DNA of 37,361 nt from Nitrospiria bacterium. GTDB lineage: Bacteria > Nitrospirota > UBA9217. Positions 23,848 to 37,260 of the stretch are shown in pieces. Positions within the stretch are counted from its first letter, which is position 1. Each line of letters starts with the position of its first letter. The notes beneath the pieces were generated by a model, which was not told the DNA's origin, ran no database searches, and worked only from the letters and a program-made list of their open reading frames with translations. Location of the stretch: NCBI GenBank assembly GCA_919902495.1, contig CAKKRC010000054.1:1-37361 (forward strand), written 5' to 3'. The position numbers and the translations under genes were made by a program.

Positions 23848-25944
23848 CTACTGTTCCGCCTTCGGGAAGAGCCTGGCGATCACGATCATCAGGATCAGGG
23901 TCACGCCGCCGAGCACCGCATAGAGCCCCCAGCTCTTGTCCTCGAACGCTCCCACGAACGCGTTCTTGAACCCCGCGGAACTGACCGATTCGACCTTCCC
24001 CATCTCCACGGTCTTCGGAAGGACATCGGCCAGGTGGGCCTGGACCAAGGTCAGGTCGTACTTCGCCGCGCCGATCGTATCGTTCCCGCCGTAGAGCGCG
24101 AACTCCCCGGCAGCGGACGCGAGGAAGAGCAGCACCGGCGCGCCGTAGCTCGCCTGCGGCTTGCCAAGCTCGATGGGCCGGTTGTCGCCGTGCTCCATGG
24201 CGATGCGCAGCTTTGCAACATCAAGCGGCAGGCCGGCGAGCGGCACGCGCAGGACCGACGGGGTCTGGGTCGCGTTCTGCCAGCGCATCGTCCTCCACAC
24301 CTGCCACCCCGCTCGCCCCTGGAGCGGCGCCTCGATTTGCACGACCCGGTCGAAGATCCCGGCGGACTCAACGCTCAGCTCCCTCAGGTCAGTTGACCGG
24401 TCCGGCAGCTCGACGGTCCAGGTGGTCCTGTTCTTCTTCTTGTCGTACTCAGGCGTTGCCGCAAGGGCGATCACCCGCTCCTCGCTCGGACCGGAAAAGT
24501 AAGGGACCTGGACGCCGTCCTTCACGATCCGGATCGTGCCGAATCCAGTGCGAAGGCTTGCCTCGCGGTTCAGCACCAGCCGGTAGTATCCCGCCTCCCC
24601 GACCGGGAGCCGCGACTGCCAGCGGAACCCCTTCCCGTCAAAGGGCCCTCCCGCGACAGCATACTTCTTGAGCAGGCTCTCGGGCTGCCACTGCGGATTC
24701 TCCTGCGCATCGGAGAAAGCGACGACAGCACTGATCTTCCGCTCCTTGTCCCCCGGCGTCTCCTGGATGGCCACCAGGCTCCCCAGGCCGGTCTGGGCCA
24801 GATATGAGCCGGCCTTGTCAGCGTAGAAGGTCATACGAGGAAGGTTCACCGTGATCGCCATGGACTTGATCGCGCCGACGTACGTCTTGCCCGGATCGAG
24901 CCGCAGCACGAGTGAGCGCGTAGCCCAGTAGCCAGCCACGGGGATCTCGAGCAGGCTGCCTTTTTTCCCAACTGTCGTGACACTTCCGGAGAGCAGCTTC
25001 TGGAACTGCAGCTTGCCGCCGGAGACCACCTCGGCGCCCAGCTCCCAGGCGCCCTGGAACTGCGCTTCGGTAGTAAGCGTAATGTGTTTGATCCAGAGCC
25101 CCGGGCCCGGCAGGGTTGTGGAGAGCACGCGCATATGCTCGTCGGTCTTGTCCGAGAACTTGAGCGGCACGGACAGCTGCGCGAAGTCCTGCGCGGCGTT
25201 CTTGCCCGAAAGGGTCACCGACGTCACCGGCAGGGTCGTCTCGCGGAACCGCTTGTCATAGCCCTTGAAGCCGAGCCGCAGCTTCTGGTAGATCCCTTGC
25301 TTGACGCTGATCTCGGCGGCAAAGCGGCCGCCGGACGCGTAGAGGGCAGCATTCTCCGCAAGCACGTGCCAGCCTTTTGCGTCCAAGCCCTCGATCTTCA
25401 CCGTGCCCATGGTCTGCGGCGCGTCCACGTCGATCCGGACCGTCTCGACGAGCAGGTCCTTCGGCCCGTCGGCCTCCCAGACGAGCATGCGCTTCTTGTC
25501 GAAGAGCAGGCGGCTGGGCTTCAGCGCAACGCTGCGCGGTCCGGTGTCGCCCTTCCAGAAAAGCTCGAAGGAGCGCGGATTGCCGTCCGGCCCGACGAGG
25601 GTCAGGTCCAGCTGCGAGGTCCTGGCCGCGCCGTCCGTCCCGAAGAAGACCCCGGCAGGCAGCACTGTCTCGATCAGCCCCGGCTGGTCGACCTGCGCCG
25701 ATGCCTGATAGTGCCATTGCTGGTCGAGCCCCACCTGCGGGAGCTGTTGGCTCCTCTTATCGACGCGAGATCCCGCAGCAGCAGGTTTCATTGACTCCGG
25801 CTGTCGCGAAGCGACGGCTGCAAAACTCCCCCGACTCCTGTCGGGGCCTGCTGCGGCCGCGGGGTCGGCAAAAGCGGGATGCGGCGATGAGAGGAGGATG
25901 AAAGTGACGATACTGAAAAACGCTGAAGTTTGGTACTGTTTCAT
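23848..25944 (-). CDS. Exported DUF3999-like membrane-anchored protein
   Basis: From the ATG at 25944 (AAAGGTGA upstream) it has 698 residues, longer than the 450-500 usual in DUF3999. A signal peptide (MKQYQTSAFFSIVTFILLSSPHPAFA) precedes a region with WHYQASAQVDQPGLIETVLP. The C-terminus holds GDNRPIELGKPQASYGAPVLLF and a single membrane helix (WGLYAVLGGVTLILMIVIARLF), as in DUF3999 proteins of Pseudomonas-type genomes, which often sit next to DUF2339; none is seen here. The middle may be a family-specific insertion. It is inner-membrane anchored with a periplasmic domain; its function is unknown. A 123-bp piece of this gene is repeated at 28098-28220. Confidence 0.65.
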   Translation of the reverse strand: MKQYQTSAFFSIVTFILLSSPHPAFADPAAAAGPDRSRGSFAAVASRQPESMKPAAAGSRVDKRSQQLPQVGLDQQWHYQASAQVDQPGLIETVLPAGVFFGTDGAARTSQLDLTLVGPDGNPRSFELFWKGDTGPRSVALKPSRLLFDKKRMLVWEADGPKDLLVETVRIDVDAPQTMGTVKIEGLDAKGWHVLAENAALYASGGRFAAEISVKQGIYQKLRLGFKGYDKRFRETTLPVTSVTLSGKNAAQDFAQLSVPLKFSDKTDEHMRVLSTTLPGPGLWIKHITLTTEAQFQGAWELGAEVVSGGKLQFQKLLSGSVTTVGKKGSLLEIPVAGYWATRSLVLRLDPGKTYVGAIKSMAITVNLPRMTFYADKAGSYLAQTGLGSLVAIQETPGDKERKISAVVAFSDAQENPQWQPESLLKKYAVAGGPFDGKGFRWQSRLPVGEAGYYRLVLNREASLRTGFGTIRIVKDGVQVPYFSGPSEERVIALAATPEYDKKKNRTTWTVELPDRSTDLRELSVESAGIFDRVVQIEAPLQGRAGWQVWRTMRWQNATQTPSVLRVPLAGLPLDVAKLRIAMEHGDNRPIELGKPQASYGAPVLLFLASAAGEFALYGGNDTIGAAKYDLTLVQAHLADVLPKTVEMGKVESVSSAGFKNAFVGAFEDKSWGLYAVLGGVTLILMIVIARLFPKAEQ

Positions 25945-26067
25945 GCAGGTCACCTTTCCGGGAGGCTCATCCCGTCGCCGCGGACGTTGCAGCAGCTCCA
26001 GAGTCTTGAAACGATAGCGGCAGCAGTCATCCGACAGCCTCATTCCATCTCTGTTTGTTATTGAATC

Positions 26068-26089
26068 TCCCTGCAGCAAGCTGCAGGGA
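26068..26089. repeat. Short palindromic hairpin
   Basis: TCCCTGCAGC and GCTGCAGGGA form a perfect 10-bp stem around AA, between the DUF3999-like start and the gene ending at 26199. A degenerate relative, CCCCGCAGC (26136-26144) with GCTACGGGG (26171-26179), is 60 bases away. The CTGCAGC-AA-GCTGCAG form looks like a dispersed REP-type element. Confidence 0.6.
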
Positions 26090-26198
26090 ATCTTCGATCC
26101 TCAAAGTAGTTTAAGTTATCCTAATCGCTCGCTAACCCCGCAGCAAGACTTCGGCGAGCTCAGTCGAGCCGCTACGGGGAATGCGCTCGCTCCTGGAT

Positions 26199-26522
26199 TC
26201 ATAGGGCACGCAATTCCTTGCCTCGCAGAATCTTCTTGATAAACGCGATCCGCTTTCTTACTTCAGACAGTTTGTTTCGATACAATGCCCGATCTTTCTT
26301 GACGGTCTCGTAATAGCGGACATCCTTGCCCATGAGCTTGCCTTTGTACTCGAATCGCACTTTTCCATTTTCCCGGGACAGGAGATAGCAATACTGTCGT
26401 CCCTTGACATACTTCTTCACCAGAACGCCGCGGGGCAGCCCGGCCAGGGACTTTTCATGGTCTTTCTCGGCAAGCACCGCCTTCTTGAGTTCGTCTTCCA
26501 GAACGCCTTTGATAATCTTCAT
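26199..26522 (-). CDS. Small hypothetical basic protein (107 residues)
   Basis: The product starts at the ATG at 26522 (a GTG two codons upstream is possible; neither has a good ribosome site). It is lysine- and arginine-rich, with LPRGVLVKKYVKGRQYCYLL and VRFEYKGKL, resembling a short beta-strand domain of the KGxxYxYL type that I have seen in many small uncharacterised proteins, then a basic helix YRNKLSEVRKRIAFIKKIL. No named family is assigned. Its transcript would begin within the palindromic repeat described at 26536-26577, whose sigma-70-like promoter is the best in the window, so leader and operator overlap. It probably binds nucleic acid, but that is a guess. Confidence 0.6.
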   Translation of the reverse strand: MKIIKGVLEDELKKAVLAEKDHEKSLAGLPRGVLVKKYVKGRQYCYLLSRENGKVRFEYKGKLMGKDVRYYETVKKDRALYRNKLSEVRKRIAFIKKILRGKELRAL

Positions 26523-26535
26523 AGGCACCTATGCC

Positions 26536-26577
26536 GTTACCATACAATAGCGCGATTATACTGAGATGTATGGTAAC
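26536..26577 (-). repeat. Palindromic promoter-operator repeat, copy 1
   Basis: Arms GTTACCATACA (26536-26546) and TGTATGGTAAC (26567-26577) are perfect complements with a 20-base gap. It lies directly before the gene starting at 26522 and directly after the end of the DUF6933-like gene (26580). Confidence 0.85.
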
Positions 26578-26583
26578 CGTCAA
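26555..26583 (-). promoter_or_regulatory. Sigma-70-type promoter inside repeat copy 1
   Basis: Read on the minus strand: TTGACG (26583-26578), a 17-base spacer and TATAAT (26560-26555), matching the sigma-70 consensus at 11 of 12 positions. One palindrome arm fills most of the spacer and the other lies just past the likely transcription start, so a protein bound to the arms would cover the promoter. Confidence 0.65.
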
Positions 26584-27152
26584 GGAAGTATCTGCGCTTT
26601 CGATTTTGAAAATGTCATCGTGAAAGGATCGACGAGTTCGCGAACCTTATCGGTCCTGCCGAAGAGCTCGTATACCTTTTCGACGGCATAATGGTACTTA
26701 AGCGCACCCATGGGAACGCGGTTGAGCATCATGTTCACCCTGAGCATGTCGGCCTTTTCCAGGCCGCCGGCCCGGCTGATGAGGAACTCGACCTGGTTCA
26801 CGAGATCGTTCATGGAGCCGAGCACGCTTCGGTTCGATGTCGGCGCAACAGCTATTTCGCTGTACTCATCCAGCGCTTTGAGGATTTCCCCCTGCCTCAG
26901 GCCTTCTACGGCAAGTTGAGCATTCAGGTTCATGAGAAAGAGATCGTGAACATCATCCTTCTTCTTCACTCCCGGCACAAGGAACGAGTAGAGCGTGCGA
27001 TCGTTCGTGAAGAGGATGCACTTTCTGCGTTCGATCCTGATCAGGTTCGCGTGCCAGGGGCCAAGAACACCGGCCGGATGCCCGGCCGGCATTTTGCTGC
27101 CGAGCGCCCCGAGCTCATTCAACAGTTTCTTCGTACAATGGATGATCTGCAT
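26580..27152 (-). CDS. DUF6933-like protein
   Basis: The 190-residue protein starts MQIIHCTKKLLNELG and has GPWHANLIRIERRKCILFTNDRTLYSFLVPG, then NRSVLGSMNDLVNQVEF. The HCTKKL start, the WHANL..RRKC(I/V)LF stretch and the RSVL..SMND motif are those of DUF6933, a small cytoplasmic family of unknown function. It lacks a clear ribosome site. Its likely promoter lies in repeat copy 2, about 135 bases upstream, beyond a short frame interrupted by a run of ten C. Its stop codon overlaps the outer edge of repeat copy 1, so the two genes and repeats are packed. Confidence 0.7.
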   Translation of the reverse strand: MQIIHCTKKLLNELGALGSKMPAGHPAGVLGPWHANLIRIERRKCILFTNDRTLYSFLVPGVKKKDDVHDLFLMNLNAQLAVEGLRQGEILKALDEYSEIAVAPTSNRSVLGSMNDLVNQVEFLISRAGGLEKADMLRVNMMLNRVPMGALKYHYAVEKVYELFGRTDKVRELVDPFTMTFSKSKAQILP

Positions 27153-27207
27153 GGCTTTTGCTGTTTCTACGGGATCGCAAGTAGGAACTTCTTGTACTCG
27201 CTGATGA

Positions 27208-27217
27208 CCCCCCCCCC
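27208..27217. repeat. Homopolymer run of ten C (G on the minus strand)
   Basis: The run lies in a short minus-strand frame starting MAIDKAVGG. With one more G the frame would continue VISEYKKFLLAIP and stop 20 bases before the DUF6933-like ATG; with ten it stays open in another frame. It could be a slippage site or a sequencing error. Confidence 0.7.
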
Positions 27218-27287
27218 ACCGCCTTGTCGATCGCCATTACGCAGCAACCCCGCTTCTTTCCTCAGACCTGAAGAAACAACCTTCGCG

Positions 27288-27329
27288 GTTACCATACAAT
27301 ATAGGCATTACTGCTCTCTGTATGGTAAC
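27288..27329 (-). repeat. Palindromic promoter-operator repeat, copy 2
   Basis: Arms at 27288-27298 and 27319-27329, identical to copy 1, with the same 20-base gap. On the minus strand TTGGCC, 17 bases, AGTAAT is a weak promoter at the place of the copy-1 promoter. The tail toward 27225 is shared with copy 5. Confidence 0.85.
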
Positions 27330-27541
27330 GGCCAAGGAAGGTTTATACGTTCACTCCATGATGGAAACATGCGGGCCATTTGTAGTTCTCCGTCACCAGG
27401 CTCTATTACTTATATTGCGGCTTTGTGCTGTCATCGGAAAGCATTATGACGAATGACCCTAACGCTGTCTCTTCTTGCCTATCACCATTACGGGACACCC
27501 TCCTCACTTCACTACTCAGAGCTCAAGCGACAGCCTTCGCG

Positions 27542-27588
27542 GTTACCATACCATACACGTTGGCATTATTCGCAGTCTGTATGGTAAC
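27542..27588 (-). repeat. Palindromic promoter-operator repeat, copy 3
   Basis: The left arm has a duplicated CCATA (27542-27557); the right arm (27578-27588) is intact and the inner gap is again 20 bases. TTGGCC and AATAAT boxes on the minus strand are 18 bases apart. Confidence 0.85.
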
Positions 27589-27707
27589 GGCCAAGAGATG
27601 TTTATCGGTTCGTATTTTCATCATTACGATGGTATTTCATTGGTTGACCCGGTCCGACCCCGATATGCTTGGCCTAGCAGATCTGAATCACCATGTGGAC
27701 ACAATCC

Positions 27708-27965
27708 TTATTCGGGAAGTTTCGGCAAGTTGTTCAACGTTTTGACGTACCGGTCGTGATTGAAGGGCTCGTCCCTTTTCAGAATATAATATGTCTCCGC
27801 GGCGATCGCGGCCCCTATCAAGTCTTTCGCCTCTGCTTCCGAATGCCCCTCCTGAAGCAGCCGTTCATAGGTCTGACGGGTCTCCGGCGGCTCGTTGTCG
27901 CGAAGCTGGTTCTCCACCGCTTCAAGGAATGCGGCGCGAAGGCGGGGATTGAACTTCTCAGGCAT
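27708..27965 (-). CDS. Conserved hypothetical protein (85 residues)
   Basis: From the ATG at 27965, with GGAGG five bases upstream, the product reads MPEKFNPRLRAAFLEAVENQ and continues with NEPPETRQTYERLLQEGHSEAEAKDLIGAAIAAETYYILKRDEPF. This helical sequence (NPRLR..L.VVENQLRDN.PPETR) belongs to a widespread small-protein family that I recognise but cannot name. Repeat copy 4 ends 26 bases before the ATG, so its promoter should drive this gene. Of the genes in the array it has the best ribosome site. Confidence 0.7.
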   Translation of the reverse strand: MPEKFNPRLRAAFLEAVENQLRDNEPPETRQTYERLLQEGHSEAEAKDLIGAAIAAETYYILKRDEPFNHDRYVKTLNNLPKLPE

Positions 27966-27990
27966 GGCATCCTCCGGAACTTCCCGGCCG

Positions 27991-28032
27991 GTTACCATAC
28001 ACGTAGGCATTATTCGCAGTCTGTATGGTAAC
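27991..28032 (-). repeat. Palindromic promoter-operator repeat, copy 4
   Basis: Perfect arms (27991-28001 and 28022-28032), 20-base gap, minus-strand TTGGCC and AATAAT boxes 18 bases apart. It is immediately upstream of the 85-residue gene. Confidence 0.88.
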
Positions 28033-28097
28033 GGCCAAGGGACACTTATCGGTCAGCATGTTCATCTTTTATGATCGTATATTAAGTGGTTGGCCTG

Positions 28098-28220
28098 GTC
28101 CGGCCCGACCAAGGTCAGGTCCAGCTGCGAGGTCCTGACCGCGCCGTCCGTCCCGAAGAAGACCCCGGCAGGCAGCACTGTCTCGATCAGCCCCGTCCGG
28201 GTGACCTGCGCCGATGCCTG
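28098..28220 (-). pseudogene. Duplicated fragment of the DUF3999-like gene
   Basis: These 123 bases align without gaps to 25585-25707 inside the DUF3999-like gene; I count seven differences. The reading frame is kept (QASAQVTRTGLIETVLPAGV and on, then TSQLDLTLVGP) in a 70-codon ORF (28062-28274), but the rest of the gene is missing and no good ribosome site is present. It lies between repeat copies 4 and 5, so it seems to have been copied into the array. Confidence 0.85.
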
Positions 28221-28307
28221 GATGAACCTCCCCGCAATTACCATGTCGATCACCCATACGCAGCCCGGCTTCACTCCTCAGACCTGAAGAAACAGCCTTC
28301 TAACGCG

Positions 28308-28349
28308 GTTACCATACACACAAGCATTATTCGCTGTCTGTATGGTAAC
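28308..28349 (-). repeat. Palindromic promoter-operator repeat, copy 5
   Basis: Perfect arms (28308-28318 and 28339-28349) and a 20-base gap; minus-strand TTGGCC and AATAAT boxes. The tail toward about 28240 matches that of copy 2 (TGTTTCTTCAGGTCTGAGGA on the minus strand). Confidence 0.88.
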
Positions 28350-28468
28350 GGCCAAGGGAAGTCTATACGTTCGCTTCCGGGACCATCAGACCATGACTGA
28401 TACTCGGGGAGCGCGAATTGAAACGTCCCTTCCTCGACCCTAGGAGGTCAACATCAAATCGCAAAATT

Positions 28469-29323: not shown

Positions 29324-30487
29324 TTAGATCAAACTCTTTATGGTTTCCCAAGCACGCTGCCAGGGAATACGCTCCTGTTCCAGCCGGACATAATCCCCCA
29401 ACTTATTGCTCAAAATGCTTTCGTAGGCCTCTTGCTCTTCTGGTGCCAAGAGTGACAGTGTCGCCCGTTTAGGATCCTTATCGTGCGACCAGAGATCTTC
29501 GTGGTCAGTCAGCGTTTTCAAATCCATCAGAAAAGATTTTACATGGGGGTGATATGTCCGTAACCTGTTCAAAATGGCAAACCCGGCCGTATCCAGATCA
29601 CCCCAGTAGAAACACGGAACATGTCTAAGCCACGAGATGTCTCTATAAATGTCCACCGCGTTGCCCATACGCATGAAAACAACCGCGCCAGGGATATCTC
29701 CAAAGGCCAATCCGTTCTGTAAATTTTCAACGATAAATACTGCTCTCAGAGAGAGCTCTAACGCGGCGAGGTCTTCTACGGGGGTCGCGATGTCTCTCAA
29801 ACCACCAAAATTGGCTCTGATTAAAGTGTCCAGAATACACATACGAACCATTCGGGGCTGCTTCCGGACACCCATTATGTCGAACAGATCGGTTTTCTCG
29901 TCAATGGCGGCCCTGAGACCGCTGAGTAACCCGGTGACGATTGATCTCCTGTTTTCTATCCATTTTGTATCTATTCCGCGAATGGGCAGTTGGCGAATAT
30001 ATAGATGCGATTTCGGATTCTCGAACAACCAGGTGGTCACATTCAGGAGTCGGTCAAAGTCGGTGTCGGAATAGTCCGCGAGATCGTCGTAATACTTCGA
30101 GATCGAGTCGGTCAAAATAGGCCATTTGGTCAAAATCAGGTCTCGCCTTTTTGTTGCACTACTCCACCGCTCCGATTCGCCAATCCACGAGACGACCTGT
30201 TCCGGGTTGTGCATGACAATACGCTCCGGTACTTGTTGAGTGCCGAGAATCTGCCAATGTCTCTCTACCCAGATTACGTCCCCTGCTCCAGTCCACGTGT
30301 GCCAGAATAGCTGCCAAGCTTTAACGTCCTTTACTTGCTCTTGGGCCTCCTTCTCACTTGGAATGCCAAGGCGAAATGAGATGGGCCACTCCCCTTTGCC
30401 ATCCAGCCATATCCGACGGCTGTTGTCATACTTCCGCCGCAACTTTTCGGAGATGTCTTTCTTATCGAGAAGGATATTCTTAGCCAT
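29324..30487 (-). CDS. jetD: Wadjet subunit JetD (DUF3322/DUF2220 nuclease)
   Basis: JetD is the topoisomerase VI-like nuclease that cuts circular plasmid DNA after JetABC has extruded it. The 387-residue product has an N-terminal DUF3322 region and a Toprim-like DUF2220 core: Glu254 in FIVENLQNG, then Asp297 and Asp299 in YWGDLDTAG. This is the expected acidic triad. A normal length and intact motifs suggest function. The ATG at 30487 overlaps the jetC stop by eight bases. It is the last gene of the operon. Confidence 0.94.
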   Translation of the reverse strand: MAKNILLDKKDISEKLRRKYDNSRRIWLDGKGEWPISFRLGIPSEKEAQEQVKDVKAWQLFWHTWTGAGDVIWVERHWQILGTQQVPERIVMHNPEQVVSWIGESERWSSATKRRDLILTKWPILTDSISKYYDDLADYSDTDFDRLLNVTTWLFENPKSHLYIRQLPIRGIDTKWIENRRSIVTGLLSGLRAAIDEKTDLFDIMGVRKQPRMVRMCILDTLIRANFGGLRDIATPVEDLAALELSLRAVFIVENLQNGLAFGDIPGAVVFMRMGNAVDIYRDISWLRHVPCFYWGDLDTAGFAILNRLRTYHPHVKSFLMDLKTLTDHEDLWSHDKDPKRATLSLLAPEEQEAYESILSNKLGDYVRLEQERIPWQRAWETIKSLI

Positions 30488-33400
30488 GGATTAGAGTGCC
30501 TAACGGGACATCAAGCTTTTTCAGTTCTTCATTGTATGAAATCTGAAGCGCGCTAGAGTACTTCTGCTCCTCGATGTCGATGACTGTTGCTCCGCCAATA
30601 TAGGGCTCAATGGTCATCACGCCCTTGCCAGGTGTTGCAAGGACAAGCTGGAAGCCAAATGTCATAAATATGTTGATGATTGCTTCCATGTAATTAGAGT
30701 CGGAATTGGCTAGAGCCTCATCAATGATTATCGGCGAATACATAGGTAGTTCGCTGTCCTCGCCACCAAGCTGGTAGCGAAGCGCCGCAGCGACGCAGGT
30801 AGCGGATAATTTCTCTCTCTGACCACCGGACTTGCCCGTGCCGGCGCGGTGAACTTGGATCTCCTGTTTAGTTGACAGGTCATATTCTTTACCGATGAAT
30901 TCGACGTGTTGTCTCACGTCGAGGACCTGGTTTTTCCACAGGATGTCTGCTTTATCTTCGGACTTGAGGCGCGTGACCAGATTCTTGAAAATGAGGAAGC
31001 GTTTTTCAGCATCCTCCCGTGTAGTCAGCCAGCTCTTGTCCAACGCCTTTGATATTTCAGCCTGAAATTCCCTGATCTGCGGCAAATGGCGGTCGTTTAC
31101 AACAATCTTCAAGTAGGTGTCGGGGTTGTAGGGCGCTGTTTCCAAAACCGAGTTCACCTCCTCCATCCGAACTCGGATAAGCTTTCGTCCCTCCTTAATG
31201 TGATTGCTCAGGGCAGAGATGTTATTTTCGCTCTGTTCCTCGAGCATCTTGAAGAATTTGTCCTCTACTTTCGGCAAACCATCCTTTCTGAGTTTGTCCA
31301 GAATGTTCATGAAGTCTGAGGCGTACCCGATTTCGGCTTTAAGATCACCGCGGAACCGGCTGAACTCCCGGAGAAAGTCGTTAAAAGACTTTTCCATGGC
31401 TCCTTTGAGTTCCGCCTGGTCCTCCGTAAGGGTCAGGATCTCATTCTTGATCTGTCCGCTGACCTTGCCGGTTACGTTGTCTAGCGTCGAAAGAGTCAGC
31501 CTATCACGAACAGCAGTGAACCGTTCGGCGAGAGCTTCTTCCTTATCTGCAGAGAGCGGCATTGCCGAGATATCGCTGACAACGCGCGTGAGTCGGATTT
31601 CTAGCGAGGCAAACTCTTTGGCGATCGCTATACGGCTGGCTTTGATATTATTCAGGTTTGTTTCCTCGCTGGCACGTTTCTCCTTTGACTGACGAATCTT
31701 ATCCTCAAGTTCTTTGAGGGTCGTGCTAGAAGCAGCGCGCAGTTCATCTCGCGTTTGCATAAGGGCTCTCACGCGTTCGTACGAACTTATGATGTCCACT
31801 TCCTCCCAGGAGATGTTCACAAGTGCCTGACAGCCAAGGATTCGTTCCTGAAGGGTCTCCAAATTTCGCTTAAGCTGACCCTTCTGTTTGGCGAGATCAG
31901 CGATTTCCCGGTCGAGTGTTTTCAGCGCCCCTTCGTACAGCCTCTTCTTGCCCGTATTGTCTGAACCGAGAACCCATGCCAGCTGATCATCAATGCGTTT
32001 TCGGTCATCCTTGACATGTTTATTTTCACCCTGCTTTATCTGCCCTTCTTTAGTCAACGAATATTCGGCGGCGCGAAATTCGCTCATATCGGTTGCGCAG
32101 ACATAGTCAAACCGTTTTGCGAGTTCCGACTTTAACCACGGCTTATGAATATTTTCCTTGATGGTCAACTTGCTTATGACAGACCTGCTGTCGAGTTCCC
32201 TTGAAAAAGTGACTCCATGGGAGAGCGCACGATAATAGACGATCTGACCGGCCAAGAACGTCCTATTGATGTAATCCGAAACCTTTCGATAGAGATCCTC
32301 GCTGACGAGGATGGATAAAGCAAAGCCCCTGAGCAGGCGTTCAATTGCCCCATGCCAATCGGCGGCTTCTTTCCGTACTTCAATCAGTTCGCCGATGAAT
32401 GGCAGGCTATCCTCCGGGAGGTTGAGGGCGGCCACAATTTGGTCTCGGAGTCGCAGCACACGAGGGTCAATGTTTGACTGGGACCGTTTCAGGGCGTCAA
32501 GTTCTGAGATAATCCCTGAGCGTTCCTTCGTCTTTTCCGCCCATGTATTCATCACGGAGACGAGGGTCTCGTTGTCTTTGTCAAAAATGCTTTTTCTTGT
32601 GTCCAGCACCTCCTTCGCCTCGGCGATAAGCTGCGCATAGTCTTGGGAAGTATCTGGAAATTTCCGTCCGAACTTTACACAAGCTTCTTCGGCCTGTCGT
32701 TTTTTGATTGCGCGCTGGTCCCTCTCCTTTTCGGCATTCCTGATCGCCTGCTCGAGTTCTTGGATTTTGGCTCCACCCTTGGCACGGTGCTCTTCCTCGT
32801 AAAGAACAACCTGCCTGTAGATGTCATCGACGACCTGCTGCTGTTGAGCCTCCTGCCCTGCAAGCCCGGTGTCCTGGGTTTTCAGCTGCTCGATGCACTC
32901 TTCAATTAGCCGCTTTTCTTGGCGGACTTTATATGCGTCGGTTGCCGTTTCCAGCGAAGATAAACGTACGAGTTCCTGCTGGTTGTCGATATATTTACTG
33001 TAGGCATCTTCCGATGGGGTAAGATGCTCGATCTGTCGGCGGGCATCGACCACTTCGGTATGGGCGGACTCCAACTCCAAGAACCCATCTACGAGCCGTT
33101 CCGATACTTCGTACGTCTCTGGTTTATCGAGCATAAACTCCCGGAGGAATCCATTAAGGTCCTTTGCACCGAGGTCTTTAATGGCAGCGGCTTTCTGAAG
33201 CAGCTTAAGAGCATTTTCAGATCGTATACTGAACTTCTGCATAAAATGCTCAGAGTACTTGCTGAAGTCGTCGAACATCCGAACGTCAGCGAAAGACTGT
33301 TTCAGTTTGCGTACGTCCAGCTGCGGAGGAAAATCCTTGAGCTCCTGACCAATATCAAATGGTCTGTTGGCAACAAAATAGATGTGTCTGATATCCGTCT

Positions 33401-33818
33401 CGCGGAGCGATGCCCCCTTGATGACAAGAACGTGAATGAGGCTGACCGTCTTGCCTTGACGGTTGCTGTACTCGAGAGCGAGAGCTGACCAGGTAGTACT
33501 CGTACGCAGGTACTGTGTAGCAATCTCGCCCTCCTCATTCGATTGTTCGCCCCATGCCCCTCGAATGTAGGACACGAAACTTCTGTCGTGTTTCCCCTTC
33601 TCTCCCTTTATGGCTGCCGCGTTGAATTCCTGCCACTTTTTCGGAACAATAAGGGCTGTGATAGCATCCAGGAGGCTGCTTTTGCCAGAGCCTGACCGGC
33701 CGATTATAAGATGCCCTTTTTCAGAGATGGGGATTGTGTGGAGTCCTTCGAATGTGCCCCAGTTAAAAACCTGCAGTTTCCGCATCCGATATTGTGCGTC
33801 TCGCCAGGTTCTACTCAT
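30480..33818 (-). CDS. jetC: Wadjet subunit JetC (MukB-like SMC ATPase)
   Basis: JetC is the loop-extruding ATPase of Wadjet. I start it at the ATG at 33818, preceded six bases earlier by GGAGAGG (1112 residues); an upstream in-frame ATG at 33836 and TTG at 33839 are less well placed. Walker A is GRSGSGKS (40-47), after the QVFNWGTFEGLHTI strand. Two long coiled-coil arms with a hinge follow (about 230-880). The ABC signature is KSGGQREKLS near 996-1005 and Walker B is IIIDEA near 1030. The ATP-binding motifs are complete. It overlaps jetB by eight bases and jetD by eight. It forms a complex with JetA and JetB in the cytoplasm. Confidence 0.95.
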   Translation of the reverse strand: MSRTWRDAQYRMRKLQVFNWGTFEGLHTIPISEKGHLIIGRSGSGKSSLLDAITALIVPKKWQEFNAAAIKGEKGKHDRSFVSYIRGAWGEQSNEEGEIATQYLRTSTTWSALALEYSNRQGKTVSLIHVLVIKGASLRETDIRHIYFVANRPFDIGQELKDFPPQLDVRKLKQSFADVRMFDDFSKYSEHFMQKFSIRSENALKLLQKAAAIKDLGAKDLNGFLREFMLDKPETYEVSERLVDGFLELESAHTEVVDARRQIEHLTPSEDAYSKYIDNQQELVRLSSLETATDAYKVRQEKRLIEECIEQLKTQDTGLAGQEAQQQQVVDDIYRQVVLYEEEHRAKGGAKIQELEQAIRNAEKERDQRAIKKRQAEEACVKFGRKFPDTSQDYAQLIAEAKEVLDTRKSIFDKDNETLVSVMNTWAEKTKERSGIISELDALKRSQSNIDPRVLRLRDQIVAALNLPEDSLPFIGELIEVRKEAADWHGAIERLLRGFALSILVSEDLYRKVSDYINRTFLAGQIVYYRALSHGVTFSRELDSRSVISKLTIKENIHKPWLKSELAKRFDYVCATDMSEFRAAEYSLTKEGQIKQGENKHVKDDRKRIDDQLAWVLGSDNTGKKRLYEGALKTLDREIADLAKQKGQLKRNLETLQERILGCQALVNISWEEVDIISSYERVRALMQTRDELRAASSTTLKELEDKIRQSKEKRASEETNLNNIKASRIAIAKEFASLEIRLTRVVSDISAMPLSADKEEALAERFTAVRDRLTLSTLDNVTGKVSGQIKNEILTLTEDQAELKGAMEKSFNDFLREFSRFRGDLKAEIGYASDFMNILDKLRKDGLPKVEDKFFKMLEEQSENNISALSNHIKEGRKLIRVRMEEVNSVLETAPYNPDTYLKIVVNDRHLPQIREFQAEISKALDKSWLTTREDAEKRFLIFKNLVTRLKSEDKADILWKNQVLDVRQHVEFIGKEYDLSTKQEIQVHRAGTGKSGGQREKLSATCVAAALRYQLGGEDSELPMYSPIIIDEALANSDSNYMEAIINIFMTFGFQLVLATPGKGVMTIEPYIGGATVIDIEEQKYSSALQISYNEELKKLDVPLGTLIHG

Positions 33819-34485
33819 CTTCGCCCTCTCCGTCATCAACAGACTTATTGTCGGGCACCTGACCGTCTTTCAAGGCGCGATAAACTCGGATCATTGATTC
33901 TGCATTCTCTGGCGTGAAGAGCAATTTCAAAGTGGGCGATATTTCGTATCTGTCGTCGCTACCGCGAATAGCGCTCAATATGCTGAACTTTCTCATGGTA
34001 TCAACAGCGCTGTTGATCTTTTTTTCGAACCCATGATGGTCAGTGTTCCCTGTCGGCTCGTACAGCTTCAGATGGTCCATCATATCTGTCTCTGAAGTAA
34101 TCGCCGGCTCGCCTTTGGATGTGGCTTCGATCAGCAATCGCCTCAGGTAAAGAATAAGCACCGATTGTATAAATGTGATTTCTCTCCGGCGCAAAGTCGT
34201 TGGTGTATCTAAGTCCCCGGTGTCAGCCTTCTTTATAAATGCTACCCCCAACTCCCGATCAAGTTCGAGGGTGAGATATAGTTCCGAAAGCCTGCTGCGA
34301 ATCTCGTCCTCGTATCGAAGAAGGGCTGGCCAGAGGTTGATATTGCGCTTGGCATCGATGGACGGCCCTGCCAGCAAGGCAGCTAATACCGATCGTCCGT
34401 CTTGAGGCAGCCGACCGGTGTCCCCGTGATAGAGTTCAGCGGTCTGGGGTTCGTTATCGCTTGCGTGCGTGTTTTTGTTTACCAT
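33811..34485 (-). CDS. jetB: Wadjet subunit JetB (DUF4194, KITE)
   Basis: JetB is the MukE-like KITE subunit that joins JetA to JetC. The 224-residue product begins at the ATG at 34485, ten bases after AAAGG; the longer open frame lies inside the end of jetA and is not needed. It has winged-helix-like segments (RREITFIQSVLILYLRRLL, DTMRKFSILSAIRGSDDRYEISPTLKLLF) and an acidic tail (DDGEGEDE). It overlaps jetA by 32 bases and jetC by eight. Confidence 0.9.
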   Translation of the reverse strand: MVNKNTHASDNEPQTAELYHGDTGRLPQDGRSVLAALLAGPSIDAKRNINLWPALLRYEDEIRSRLSELYLTLELDRELGVAFIKKADTGDLDTPTTLRRREITFIQSVLILYLRRLLIEATSKGEPAITSETDMMDHLKLYEPTGNTDHHGFEKKINSAVDTMRKFSILSAIRGSDDRYEISPTLKLLFTPENAESMIRVYRALKDGQVPDNKSVDDGEGEDE

Positions 34486-35941
34486 TGAGACAGCCTTTCC
34501 TAAAATACACAAGTGGAATACGTGCTCTGCGTTTTTCTCCGTCGGCACCCGTCCAGGAGATAGTCTCTTCACCTTCTGGTGAAACTTCCCCGTGTCTTGT
34601 TGCTGTGAAGAGATAACCGACGATACTGCCGAGCCCCTGCTGGGCGGGATATTTGTTGAGGATATCTTTTATCGTCGTCTGACCAGTGAGGTCGGTCATA
34701 GCAACGATGTTCCGCTCGAGCTCCTTCATATTGATCTCGGAATTTGCAACCATAGAACCGACCGCGTCTAAAGATAGCTTTGGCAGCCTGCCCATGGTGA
34801 TGCCTATGTCAACGTGGTGGTAGAACGGATCGTAGAGGAGCATTTGCGCTACAGAGGAAAACTTGACGCTGGTAAGGTCCAGGGTAAAGCCGATTTTGGC
34901 GTGCGGGCTGATATCATTTTTGATATCTCGCGCCAGCAGCTGCGCCTCCTTCAGCAACTCCGTGAAACGCCGGTGTTCAAGGTACTCGCGGTTCGTGACA
35001 TATTGTTTAAGGCTCCGAGCAAAGAATTGTAGCGTTTCCTGAACCTCGGTTGCGCGGGCCAGAAGAACGCGGGTCATGCCAGAGAGAAACTTCCGCTCTT
35101 CACGCGTAAGAGACGGCGCAAACTCCCTTTCCATAATCTGCTCAATTGCATCGTCGAGGCCGGCGCTCTGCTTGATGTCCGTAAGCAGGACCCAAAACGC
35201 CTTGAATGTTTTTCCGGCTTCGCTTTCCGCTATGCGATCGACGCCAGCAAAAAGCTCTTCAAGCACTCCTCCCCTGCTCTCCTCTGACTCCAGGATCTCT
35301 TCTCGGAGCTGCTGGTTCAGACTATTGAACTTGTCCCGAACCTGCCGAAATTCGTTAGTAAGTTCGTAGACAAGGTTGAGAATCTCCCTGGTTCGTTCCA
35401 GGGATTTCTCTTTTGACAGTGGCTCATTATTACCGGACCTGATTTTATCGATCGTGTCCTGAATACGCCGTTGTTCTTCCAGAAGGGATTGAATACGCGA
35501 GTCCGGGTTAGGATCAGTATCGGAAGCCAACTGGGCGAGCTGCTGGATAACGATCGACAGACGACTTTCTGTAGCAACTGTCCTTTTTTGCGCGAGGTGG
35601 TCGATATAACTTACTGCTTGAAGTGCGCTAGCGCTTAGTTCATATACTTCCTCCCCTGTTGCACGATCGATGAAGCGCTCAAGGTAGCCATTAGTGACCC
35701 ATTGGCGAATGAGCGGTCTCGCATCGTCTGTGGTTATGTCGGTAAAACCCTGCTCTTTCAGTAGCACTAGGTCATGCGTCACCCGTTCGTGAAGGATAGA
35801 GCTGGCAAGTCGGCGTTCTCCATCAAACAAGTGGTGCGACAAAAGCGCAACATATTCAGGAGCGAGATCGGCCGCGAGGAGCGACCACGCCGCTTCTTGC
35901 CGCAGCTGTTTGTTATAGGCAACCTTTTGAACGGTCTTCAT
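34454..35941 (-). CDS. jetA: Wadjet subunit JetA (DUF3375, kleisin)
   Basis: JetA is the MukF-like kleisin subunit of the Wadjet condensin. The 495-residue protein has an N-terminal winged-helix region (WSLLAADLAPEYVALLSHHLF, RPLIRQWVTNGYLERFID, EEVYELSASALQAVSYID), a helical middle (SRIQSLLEEQRRIQDTIDKI) and a C-terminal beta region (SIVGYLFTATRHGEVSPEGEE, SWTGADGEKRRARIP). The length is as expected for DUF3375. It is the first gene of jetABCD, so the operon promoter should lie in 35942-36072; the ribosome site is weak (GAGAATGAG). Confidence 0.92.
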   Translation of the reverse strand: MKTVQKVAYNKQLRQEAAWSLLAADLAPEYVALLSHHLFDGERRLASSILHERVTHDLVLLKEQGFTDITTDDARPLIRQWVTNGYLERFIDRATGEEVYELSASALQAVSYIDHLAQKRTVATESRLSIVIQQLAQLASDTDPNPDSRIQSLLEEQRRIQDTIDKIRSGNNEPLSKEKSLERTREILNLVYELTNEFRQVRDKFNSLNQQLREEILESEESRGGVLEELFAGVDRIAESEAGKTFKAFWVLLTDIKQSAGLDDAIEQIMEREFAPSLTREERKFLSGMTRVLLARATEVQETLQFFARSLKQYVTNREYLEHRRFTELLKEAQLLARDIKNDISPHAKIGFTLDLTSVKFSSVAQMLLYDPFYHHVDIGITMGRLPKLSLDAVGSMVANSEINMKELERNIVAMTDLTGQTTIKDILNKYPAQQGLGSIVGYLFTATRHGEVSPEGEETISWTGADGEKRRARIPLVYFRKGCLNGKQKHARKR

Positions 35942-36072
35942 AACTCATTCTCAATGGCAGAGAAGATTCAGGAAACGACATATGAAGCATTTCTTGCAAA
36001 GAACGCAAACATAGCTAAATATCTTAACCATGCTTTCTGCAAATGAGATTTGGCACCAAGTTTCCCCTTACA

Positions 36073-37260
36073 CTACCGAGATAAAGATATCCGCTTGAAT
36101 TCCTCACCAAGAAAATCGAATTTACGTTCAAACAATGCGGCAAGCTTGTCGTCTGCAGTAGCAAACAATATTTGCCTACTCTTATTTATGGCAATTTCCC
36201 TCAAATAATCCAAAAACGATAAAGCATTCATATCATCCACATGTGCAACCGGATCATCAAGAAGAATCAAAGGTGGAGCATTCTCCAGTTTCTCATTAAG
36301 ACATAAGAATATTGACAAAGCAAGGGCCGCACGTTGTCCAGCGCTGATTTCCGACACCGAAACGCGGGATTCTTTGTCATTATATATCCTCACTAATTTC
36401 AACTCCCCGCTGAGATCGTTTCCTTTTTTCACATGCTCAATCCCTGCAAACTCGTGGGGCGCGTGAATTGACGTGAATATTTCACTAATTCTCTTTTGAT
36501 TCCGAGATATAAATTCTGAAACTACGTTATCAATACTATGCTTATTAATTATTATTTCAAGAACAGACTTGACCGTCTTGCAGCGTTTGAAGCGGCCATC
36601 AGCCTCAACGCGGTCTTTTTCTAATACGCTAAGTTCCTCTGTCAACTGCTGAAGCTGAGTGCTGCGTTTCTTCTCATTTTCCTTTTCTTTAACAAACTCC
36701 TTCACAAGCCCCGCCACAACGTCAATTCCGCGCACTATCTTATTCAGCGAATCAACTTTATCGATTTGCGCAATATCGTGTATAGCGCGGTATTTTTCTT
36801 GGCAGTCCCTTATCAAAAATATTCTTTCGTTTATTATTATCACAGCCTCGTCTGCCGATACGACTTGCCTGCCAAGACTTTTAACTAATTCTTTAATAGC
36901 AATTAACAATTCCTTTCTTGTAGCCGATATCTTTTCTAATTCAGCTGATAGCTTTTGTAAGTCTTCCTCAACTTTAGATTGTTCTTTTTGCCACGTGGCT
37001 AAATTGAACGCTCGTCTACTTTGATTCTGTTTATCCACAGCACTGCGAAATTCATCAAGAAGCTCTGCATATTCTTCCTCACTATAACCATTTTCTGTCA
37101 GCCGCTTGAGGTACGCCCTTATCGCCTGCAGTTGACTTTGCTTATTATCCAGTTTCTTTACTTTATTTTTCGCTTCTTCAAGTAATTCGGAAATTGGAGT
37201 ATTCTTTAGGAGACTTAGTTTGCCGGCAAGCTCATCTAAGCGCTGCATAATCACATTCAT
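36073..37260 (-). CDS. C-terminal half of an SMC/RecN-like ATPase, lacking Walker A
   Basis: The 395-residue product has a long coiled coil (about 1-250) and then the C-terminal half of an ABC-type ATPase: signature VSVSEISAGQRAALALS (Ser306-Gln309), Walker B LILLDDP (331-337), the D-loop DPVAHVDD and a terminal switch region (ILFATADDKLAAL). It has no Walker A, which in SMC, SbcC and RecN proteins lies at the N-terminus. The reading frame upstream of the ATG is closed by a TGA about 84 bases upstream, so it does not run on in frame to an N-terminal half at the window edge. It may be half of a two-gene ATPase or a broken gene. It is visibly AT-rich compared with most of the window, a sign of transfer. 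It is adjacent to jetA on the same strand. Confidence 0.75.
   Translation of the reverse strand: MNVIMQRLDELAGKLSLLKNTPISELLEEAKNKVKKLDNKQSQLQAIRAYLKRLTENGYSEEEYAELLDEFRSAVDKQNQSRRAFNLATWQKEQSKVEEDLQKLSAELEKISATRKELLIAIKELVKSLGRQVVSADEAVIIINERIFLIRDCQEKYRAIHDIAQIDKVDSLNKIVRGIDVVAGLVKEFVKEKENEKKRSTQLQQLTEELSVLEKDRVEADGRFKRCKTVKSVLEIIINKHSIDNVVSEFISRNQKRISEIFTSIHAPHEFAGIEHVKKGNDLSGELKLVRIYNDKESRVSVSEISAGQRAALALSIFLCLNEKLENAPPLILLDDPVAHVDDMNALSFLDYLREIAINKSRQILFATADDKLAALFERKFDFLGEEFKRISLSR

Follow-up and report, generated by a model that had tools for sequence, protein, structure and literature searches.

Palindromic promoter units among small genes of a Nitrospiria bacterium as putative operators of a family of small DNA-binding proteins

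In a 37,361-nt contig of a Nitrospiria bacterium (CAKKRC010000054.1, assembly GCA_919902495.1; this whole stretch is hereafter called the window), a palindrome of the form GTTACCATACA-N20-TGTATGGTAAC occurs five times within an array of small genes and brackets a promoter on the minus strand. What is this palindrome for, which protein reads it and how did it come to stand before non-homologous genes? In the reading that we favor, with a probability of about three in four, the palindrome serves as operator for ~105-aa DNA-binding proteins of a hitherto undescribed family, which belong to toxin-antitoxin-like operons, and its units were duplicated at this locus.

Palindromes and promoters in the window

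The palindromes lie at 26536, 27288, 27542/27547, 27991 and 28308, where the original prediction had placed them, and none was expected on the basis of 100 shuffles. Their arms are perfect in four of the five copies. The exception is copy 3 (27542-27588), in which a 5-bp duplication damages the left (plus-strand) arm and leaves CATACCATACA, with two mismatches at spacing 20; the predicted 20-bp centre was recovered in every copy, this one included. Minus-strand -35 and -10 boxes 17-18 bp apart, also predicted, could be identified in all five. Copy 1 (26536-26577), described beforehand as nearly consensus, has TTGACG (26583-26578) followed after 17 bp by TATAAT (26560-26555) and agrees with the consensus at 11 of 12 positions. 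A weak -35 box (TTGGCC) is found in most of the additional copies: copy 2 (27288-27329) reads TTGGCC-17-AGTAAT, and copies 3, 4 (27991-28032) and 5 (28308-28349) read TTGGCC-18-AATAAT, all on the minus strand.

Copies 1 and 4 had been said to sit just before start codons, and the distances to ATG are indeed 13 nt and 25 nt. Copy 1 is the putative operator of a small repressor-like gene (26199-26522, minus strand, ATG at 26522), whose ~107-aa product (A1 family), the proposed repressor, has no Pfam family. Behind copy 4 lies a DUF1841-like gene of 85 aa (27708-27965, minus strand; ATG at 27965, preceded by a GGAGGA site), which is 73% identical to a gene adjoining a DUF6933 homologue in a sister genome, G002. 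Copy 2 is located upstream of a DUF6933 gene (26580-27152, minus strand; Pfam E 9e-43; PADLOC candidate PDC-S63), with a leader of ~135 nt. No intact gene follows copy 3 directly, and the frame downstream of copy 5 is short or decayed. A six-frame search downstream of copies 2-5 revealed neither a nucleotidyltransferase nor further small-protein remnants. In the DUF6933 leader, downstream of copy 2, a run of ten C (27208-27217; G on the coding strand) lies inside a short open frame, possibly a slippage site or an assembly error.

The array is flanked by a 698-743-aa gene without a Pfam match (23848-25944) and by an alpha/beta hydrolase gene. A Wadjet operon adjoins it (29324-37260, minus strand), of which JetD, JetC and the DUF4194 protein were matched and the last component was assigned from position alone.

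A small-protein family and its operators

A search of the same genome and its relatives, as had been proposed, showed that the palindrome also occurs elsewhere. Another contig of this genome (C4) has three further copies, which precede a paralogue of the ~107-aa gene and a Fic gene (PADLOC candidate PDC-S04). The exact palindrome (with either A or T at one position of the arm) was also found in 48 stretches of GTDB species genomes from Elusimicrobia, Omnitrophota, Planctomycetes, Nitrospirota, Desulfobacterota, Lentisphaerae and others. In a Nitrospirota sample, 7 of 396 genomes carry it with at most three mismatches and two carry a reversed control pattern. Six of these seven also encode a close small protein (one as a contig-edge fragment), and the only other genome of the sample with such a protein is G305, in which the gene is at a contig end.

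Among 56 loci that were selected by the palindrome, which limits how this count should be read, a small-protein gene adjoins it in 43, always downstream and on the same strand. The aligned proximal sites have the consensus TTGACA, 3 nt, GTTACCATACA, 3 nt, TATAAT and then TGTATGGTAAC, and the distance from the right arm to the start codon is usually 9-47 nt. The spacing of 20 at proximal sites is no evidence, because the loci were selected for it. Second palindromes further upstream formed no part of the selection; they occur in 35 of the 43 loci, with spacing 20 in 34 and mostly 52-60 bp away, start to start. The small protein itself (~105 aa, 71% mean column identity) matched no Pfam, NCBIfam or PADLOC family above cut-off.

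To avoid selection by the palindrome, we also searched 285 Omnitrophota genomes with a protein profile, which gave 62 positive genomes, and then read the upstream DNA. Of 63 protein-first loci, nearly all from Omnitrophota, 50 have within 90 nt a palindrome that is near-perfect, with complementarity at no fewer than 10 of the 11 arm positions, compared with 1.2 expected from dinucleotide shuffles. Arms of the GTTANNNNACA type are present in 55 of the 63 (46 of the 49 loci at E below 1e-13). All 55 contain a -10-like box in the space enclosed by the arms, 39 show a TTGACA-like box ahead of the left arm, and 37 have a matching second palindrome upstream, mostly 57-59 bp away and with a matching spacer, compared with 1 of 54 at a control position. 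Thus, the promoter-operator idea of the original prediction is strongly supported, since arms surround a sigma-70-type promoter at the same position both in dozens of unrelated genomes and in these 55 homologues, whose arms differ.

The arms fall into groups (GTTACCATACA, GTTACCTAACA, GTTACCAAACA, GTTAACCAACA and TTTACACTACA), and their cores (CCAT, CCTA, CCAA, ACCA, CACT) vary with the protein subfamily; small domains fused to a nucleotidyltransferase have TTAACTACAT arms. A subgroup of ~118 aa (L090, L088, L092, L094, L099, L103 and L106) has no palindrome upstream, though a nucleotidyltransferase gene lies downstream. In its members, the ATG is preceded at a distance of a few nt by a conserved CTTTTCCACCACA...CATAAT box, a pattern suggesting leaderless transcripts and a different site.

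A nucleotidyltransferase gene (NTP_transf_8, PF12281) directly follows the small-protein gene in 90 of 127 homologues, mostly with an overlap of 8-29 nt; nine further homologues are fused to a nucleotidyltransferase, seven lie at the end of a contig and 21 are followed by something else. The partners match PF12281 with E values of 1e-22 to 1e-26 and contain a GS motif in 86 and a DxD-type motif in 68 of the 90 cases. The small domain is retained in the model of a fused protein, which among solved structures comes closest to the nucleotidyltransferase-like 5uvd (E 0.003). Given this association, by adjacency in 90 homologues and by fusion in nine, the ancestral unit is, as judged from gene content, a toxin-antitoxin-like operon with a putative toxin. 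The overlapping two-gene order with the small partner first, as in autoregulated toxin-antitoxin systems in general, is seen in the relatives and is absent from the window genome, in which no PF12281 gene was found. No mention of DUF6788 (see below), NTP_transf_8 or PF12281 was found in the literature searched.

Some loci deviate from this pattern in other ways. In the fused loci (L085, L087, L089, L095, L097, L100, L101, L102 and L104), the promoter lies within the TTAACTACAT arms and the right arm is tandemly repeated just before the start codon. At L010 (1501-1542) and L038 (1728-1769), the palindrome is near pairs of nucleotidyltransferase and HEPN-like genes, in genomes without an intact small-protein member. 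Two viral contigs, L075 and L076 (one of 548 kb), carry the exact palindrome without a detectable small-protein gene. A viral origin was rejected, as these are the only two viral contigs with the exact palindrome and the protein profile matched nothing in viral contigs.

Duplication and present state of the array

The array segment spans 25959-28421. The same two flanking genes, separated by these 2463 bp in the window, are 44 bp apart in a sister species, G001, which lacks the segment; it is the only empty site found, and its junctions are strongly diverged. In G002, the DUF1841-like gene and the DUF6933 homologue are consecutive, with 22 bp and no palindrome between them; the window genes are 555 bp apart, with copies 2 and 3 in between. 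Because G001 lacks the array and the gene pair of G002 lacks the palindromes, the units did spread.

Several local duplications can be recognized. Copies 2, 3 and 5 had been described as sharing a tail of about 60 bases; the sharing is real, but the length was underestimated, as the common segments, palindrome included, measure 105-159 bp at 75-80% identity. The promoter-operator-leader unit of copy 2 (27203-27355, minus strand) matches 28221-28375 (copy 5) at 79% identity over 159 bp and 27474-27611 (copy 3) at 75% over 138 bp. Copies 3 and 4 have 114 bp in common (83%), mainly upstream, and between copies 4 and 5 lies a 123-bp fragment of the neighboring gene 23848-25944 (28098-28220, minus strand), a 94% copy of 25585-25707. 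Of the predicted "mobile or duplicating" unit, duplication is supported by the local repeats and the two palindrome-free relatives; of transposition no sign was seen, as neither clean ends nor, in the 2463-bp insert, a transposase could be found. The array is most simply read as the product of local duplication of promoter-operator units, which now put several defence-like genes under an orphan repressor. The C4 array (L009, 5907-6250 and 7857-8119) is bordered by a type I modification gene and by a partial second copy of it (88%), much as the window array includes a copied piece of its neighbor, and it is possible that the C4 and window arrays share a mode of arrival or duplication.

Are the duplicated units still in use? 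Across the eight copies of this genome, the arms are 91-100% identical and the centres and flanks about 30%. Such conservation would fit ongoing selection on the operator; it is only suggestive, because the copies were found by their arms. The original prediction of a regulon of one repressor is plausible: the ~107-aa protein (26199-26522) is a candidate, and its putative operators precede non-homologous genes with near-perfect arms and diverged centres. Alternatively, the array might be in decay and consist of dead operator-gene duplicates that exert no current regulation on the DUF6933, DUF1841-like and Fic genes. We consider this unlikely, yet an alternative to be taken seriously: the arm of copy 3 is damaged, the frames behind copies 3 and 5 are short or interrupted, the majority of the -35 boxes are weak and the nucleotidyltransferase has been lost. 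However, the arms are perfect in six of the eight copies while the centres have diverged to about chance level, and the genes behind copy 4 and the Fic copy are intact and begin at the usual distance from the palindrome.

Which protein reads the palindrome

In 94 protein-operator pairs, the identity of the operator core rises with that of the protein (r 0.53), with only three phylogenetically independent pairs supported. The columns that best track the operator, ranked by partial r controlled for overall identity, are 57, 36, 35, 55, 45, 51 and 33, all of them in a predicted three-stranded sheet (33-61). The largest partial r in the sheet is 0.64, compared with 0.21 at the 95% point of label shuffles, and helix columns, which share the same phylogeny, reach at most 0.21. 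The AF2 model (pLDDT 88) consists of a helix, three strands and a long helix, and has no significant fold match in the PDB or among viral models. Because the residues that track the arms lie in the beta sheet, the small protein is probably a DNA-binding autorepressor, with the sheet as its likely reading surface.

A different host regulator could also own the palindromes, the small gene being merely its commonest target. Some palindromes are in fact located before other genes, such as the nucleotidyltransferase-HEPN-like pair of L010, in genomes without a detectable family member (five palindrome genomes, G024, G398, G400, G402 and G403, most of them of unknown completeness, have none). Nevertheless, palindrome and protein co-occur in the phylum sample, the same gene stands behind the site across phyla, the arms change with the small-protein subfamilies and the arm-tracking residues are confined to the sheet, all of which make another regulator improbable. 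An even smaller chance is left for the view that the copies derive from a mobile element (REP, MITE-like or transposon), as its ends or its relics, and that the promoter is incidental. Multiple copies per genome, local duplications and the insertion relative to G001 would suit such an element, but across phyla the palindrome keeps a fixed place relative to the promoter of a single gene family, the phase of the -35 and -10 boxes is constant, the geometry is kept while the arms change and the insert holds no visible transposase. REP/RAYT or transposon ends were ruled out on the same grounds of position and geometry. Finally, complementary arms might form an RNA hairpin (attenuator, terminator or processing site), which is highly improbable and was discarded, because the -10 box between the arms leaves the left arm untranscribed from the embedded promoter and no terminator-like site was found at the copies.

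The palindrome has no name of its own, as originally stated; it does, however, belong to a definable operon family with a studied parallel. By analogy, the nearest is AbiE/Rv2827c-Rv2826c, in which the antitoxin represses its own operon through inverted repeats overlapping the promoter, with two tandem pairs in the case of Rv2827c (PMC7319586). Like the type IV AbiE systems, the family described here has a two-gene operon, a nucleotidyltransferase-fold second gene and inverted repeats over its own promoter. It differs in that the AbiE toxin is DUF1814 (AbiEii) and the 23-bp repeats are separated by 3-13 bp, whereas the partner in the relatives is PF12281 (the window genome has none) and the 11-bp arms are 20-22 bp apart. 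The first protein, with a predicted helix-beta-beta-beta-helix fold, shows no similarity to AbiEi, in Pfam, NCBIfam and PADLOC searches. MenAT systems likewise combine nucleotidyltransferase toxins carrying a DxD motif with varied partner proteins as control (PMC10435456, PMC11375011), but their enzymes are of the DUF1814 family, and here the putative toxin is PF12281.

Other candidates proved to be more distant. Membership in Pfam DUF6788 (PF20586) was rejected, since the best scanned members score 11.0 and 13.1 bits against a curated cut-off of 27.2; the weak likeness (11-13 bits) is confined to the beta-strand region. The arm-type DNA-binding domains of tyrosine recombinases (PF13356, PF12167; PDB 3jtz) share a short three-stranded sheet and a helix, and gave weak profile and fold matches (E 0.01-0.8, none significant), but the small protein has no integrase attached. 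An integron attC site was excluded, as the arm GTTACCA has C where the GTTRRRY core requires a purine. Putative mobile promoters are promoter sequences that recur within one genome in front of non-homologous genes; unlike these, the present unit carries an operator for a candidate repressor and is part of an operon family found across phyla.

On our favored reading, the small protein would act at a site with the -35 box just before the left arm, the -10 box enclosed by the two arms and the right arm close to where the transcript begins, often with a second palindrome ~58 bp upstream. It may bind as a dimer, each three-stranded sheet contacting one arm; the arms would lie on the same face of the DNA, because their centres are 31 bp apart, about three helix turns. 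The bound dimer would shut out RNA polymerase and repress the operon, in which the nucleotidyltransferase would be the toxin and the small protein would also serve as antitoxin. The nucleotidyltransferase is absent from the window genome, two repressor genes are left in it, and duplication would have placed units of about 150-200 bp in front of the DUF6933, DUF1841-like and Fic (C4) genes, which would probably be co-repressed by the orphan repressor until its removal or titration.

More broadly, though only tentatively and at somewhat less than even odds, beta-sheet repressors that form a large, undescribed family and whose operator specificity is readily re-tuned may control nucleotidyltransferase toxin-antitoxin-like operons in many phyla, with an orphan member here running a small defence regulon (Fic, DUF6933 and DUF1841-like) through spread promoter-operator units. 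The data provide a predicted DNA-binding family, without a family name in the searched libraries, together with operators in about a hundred genomes, and such protein-operator pairs form a natural data set for a protein-DNA recognition code. They also add a candidate nucleotidyltransferase toxin-antitoxin family, fused forms included. The promoter-operator unit of its repressor has apparently spread to other defence-like genes, which may represent a possible route to the regulons of defence islands.
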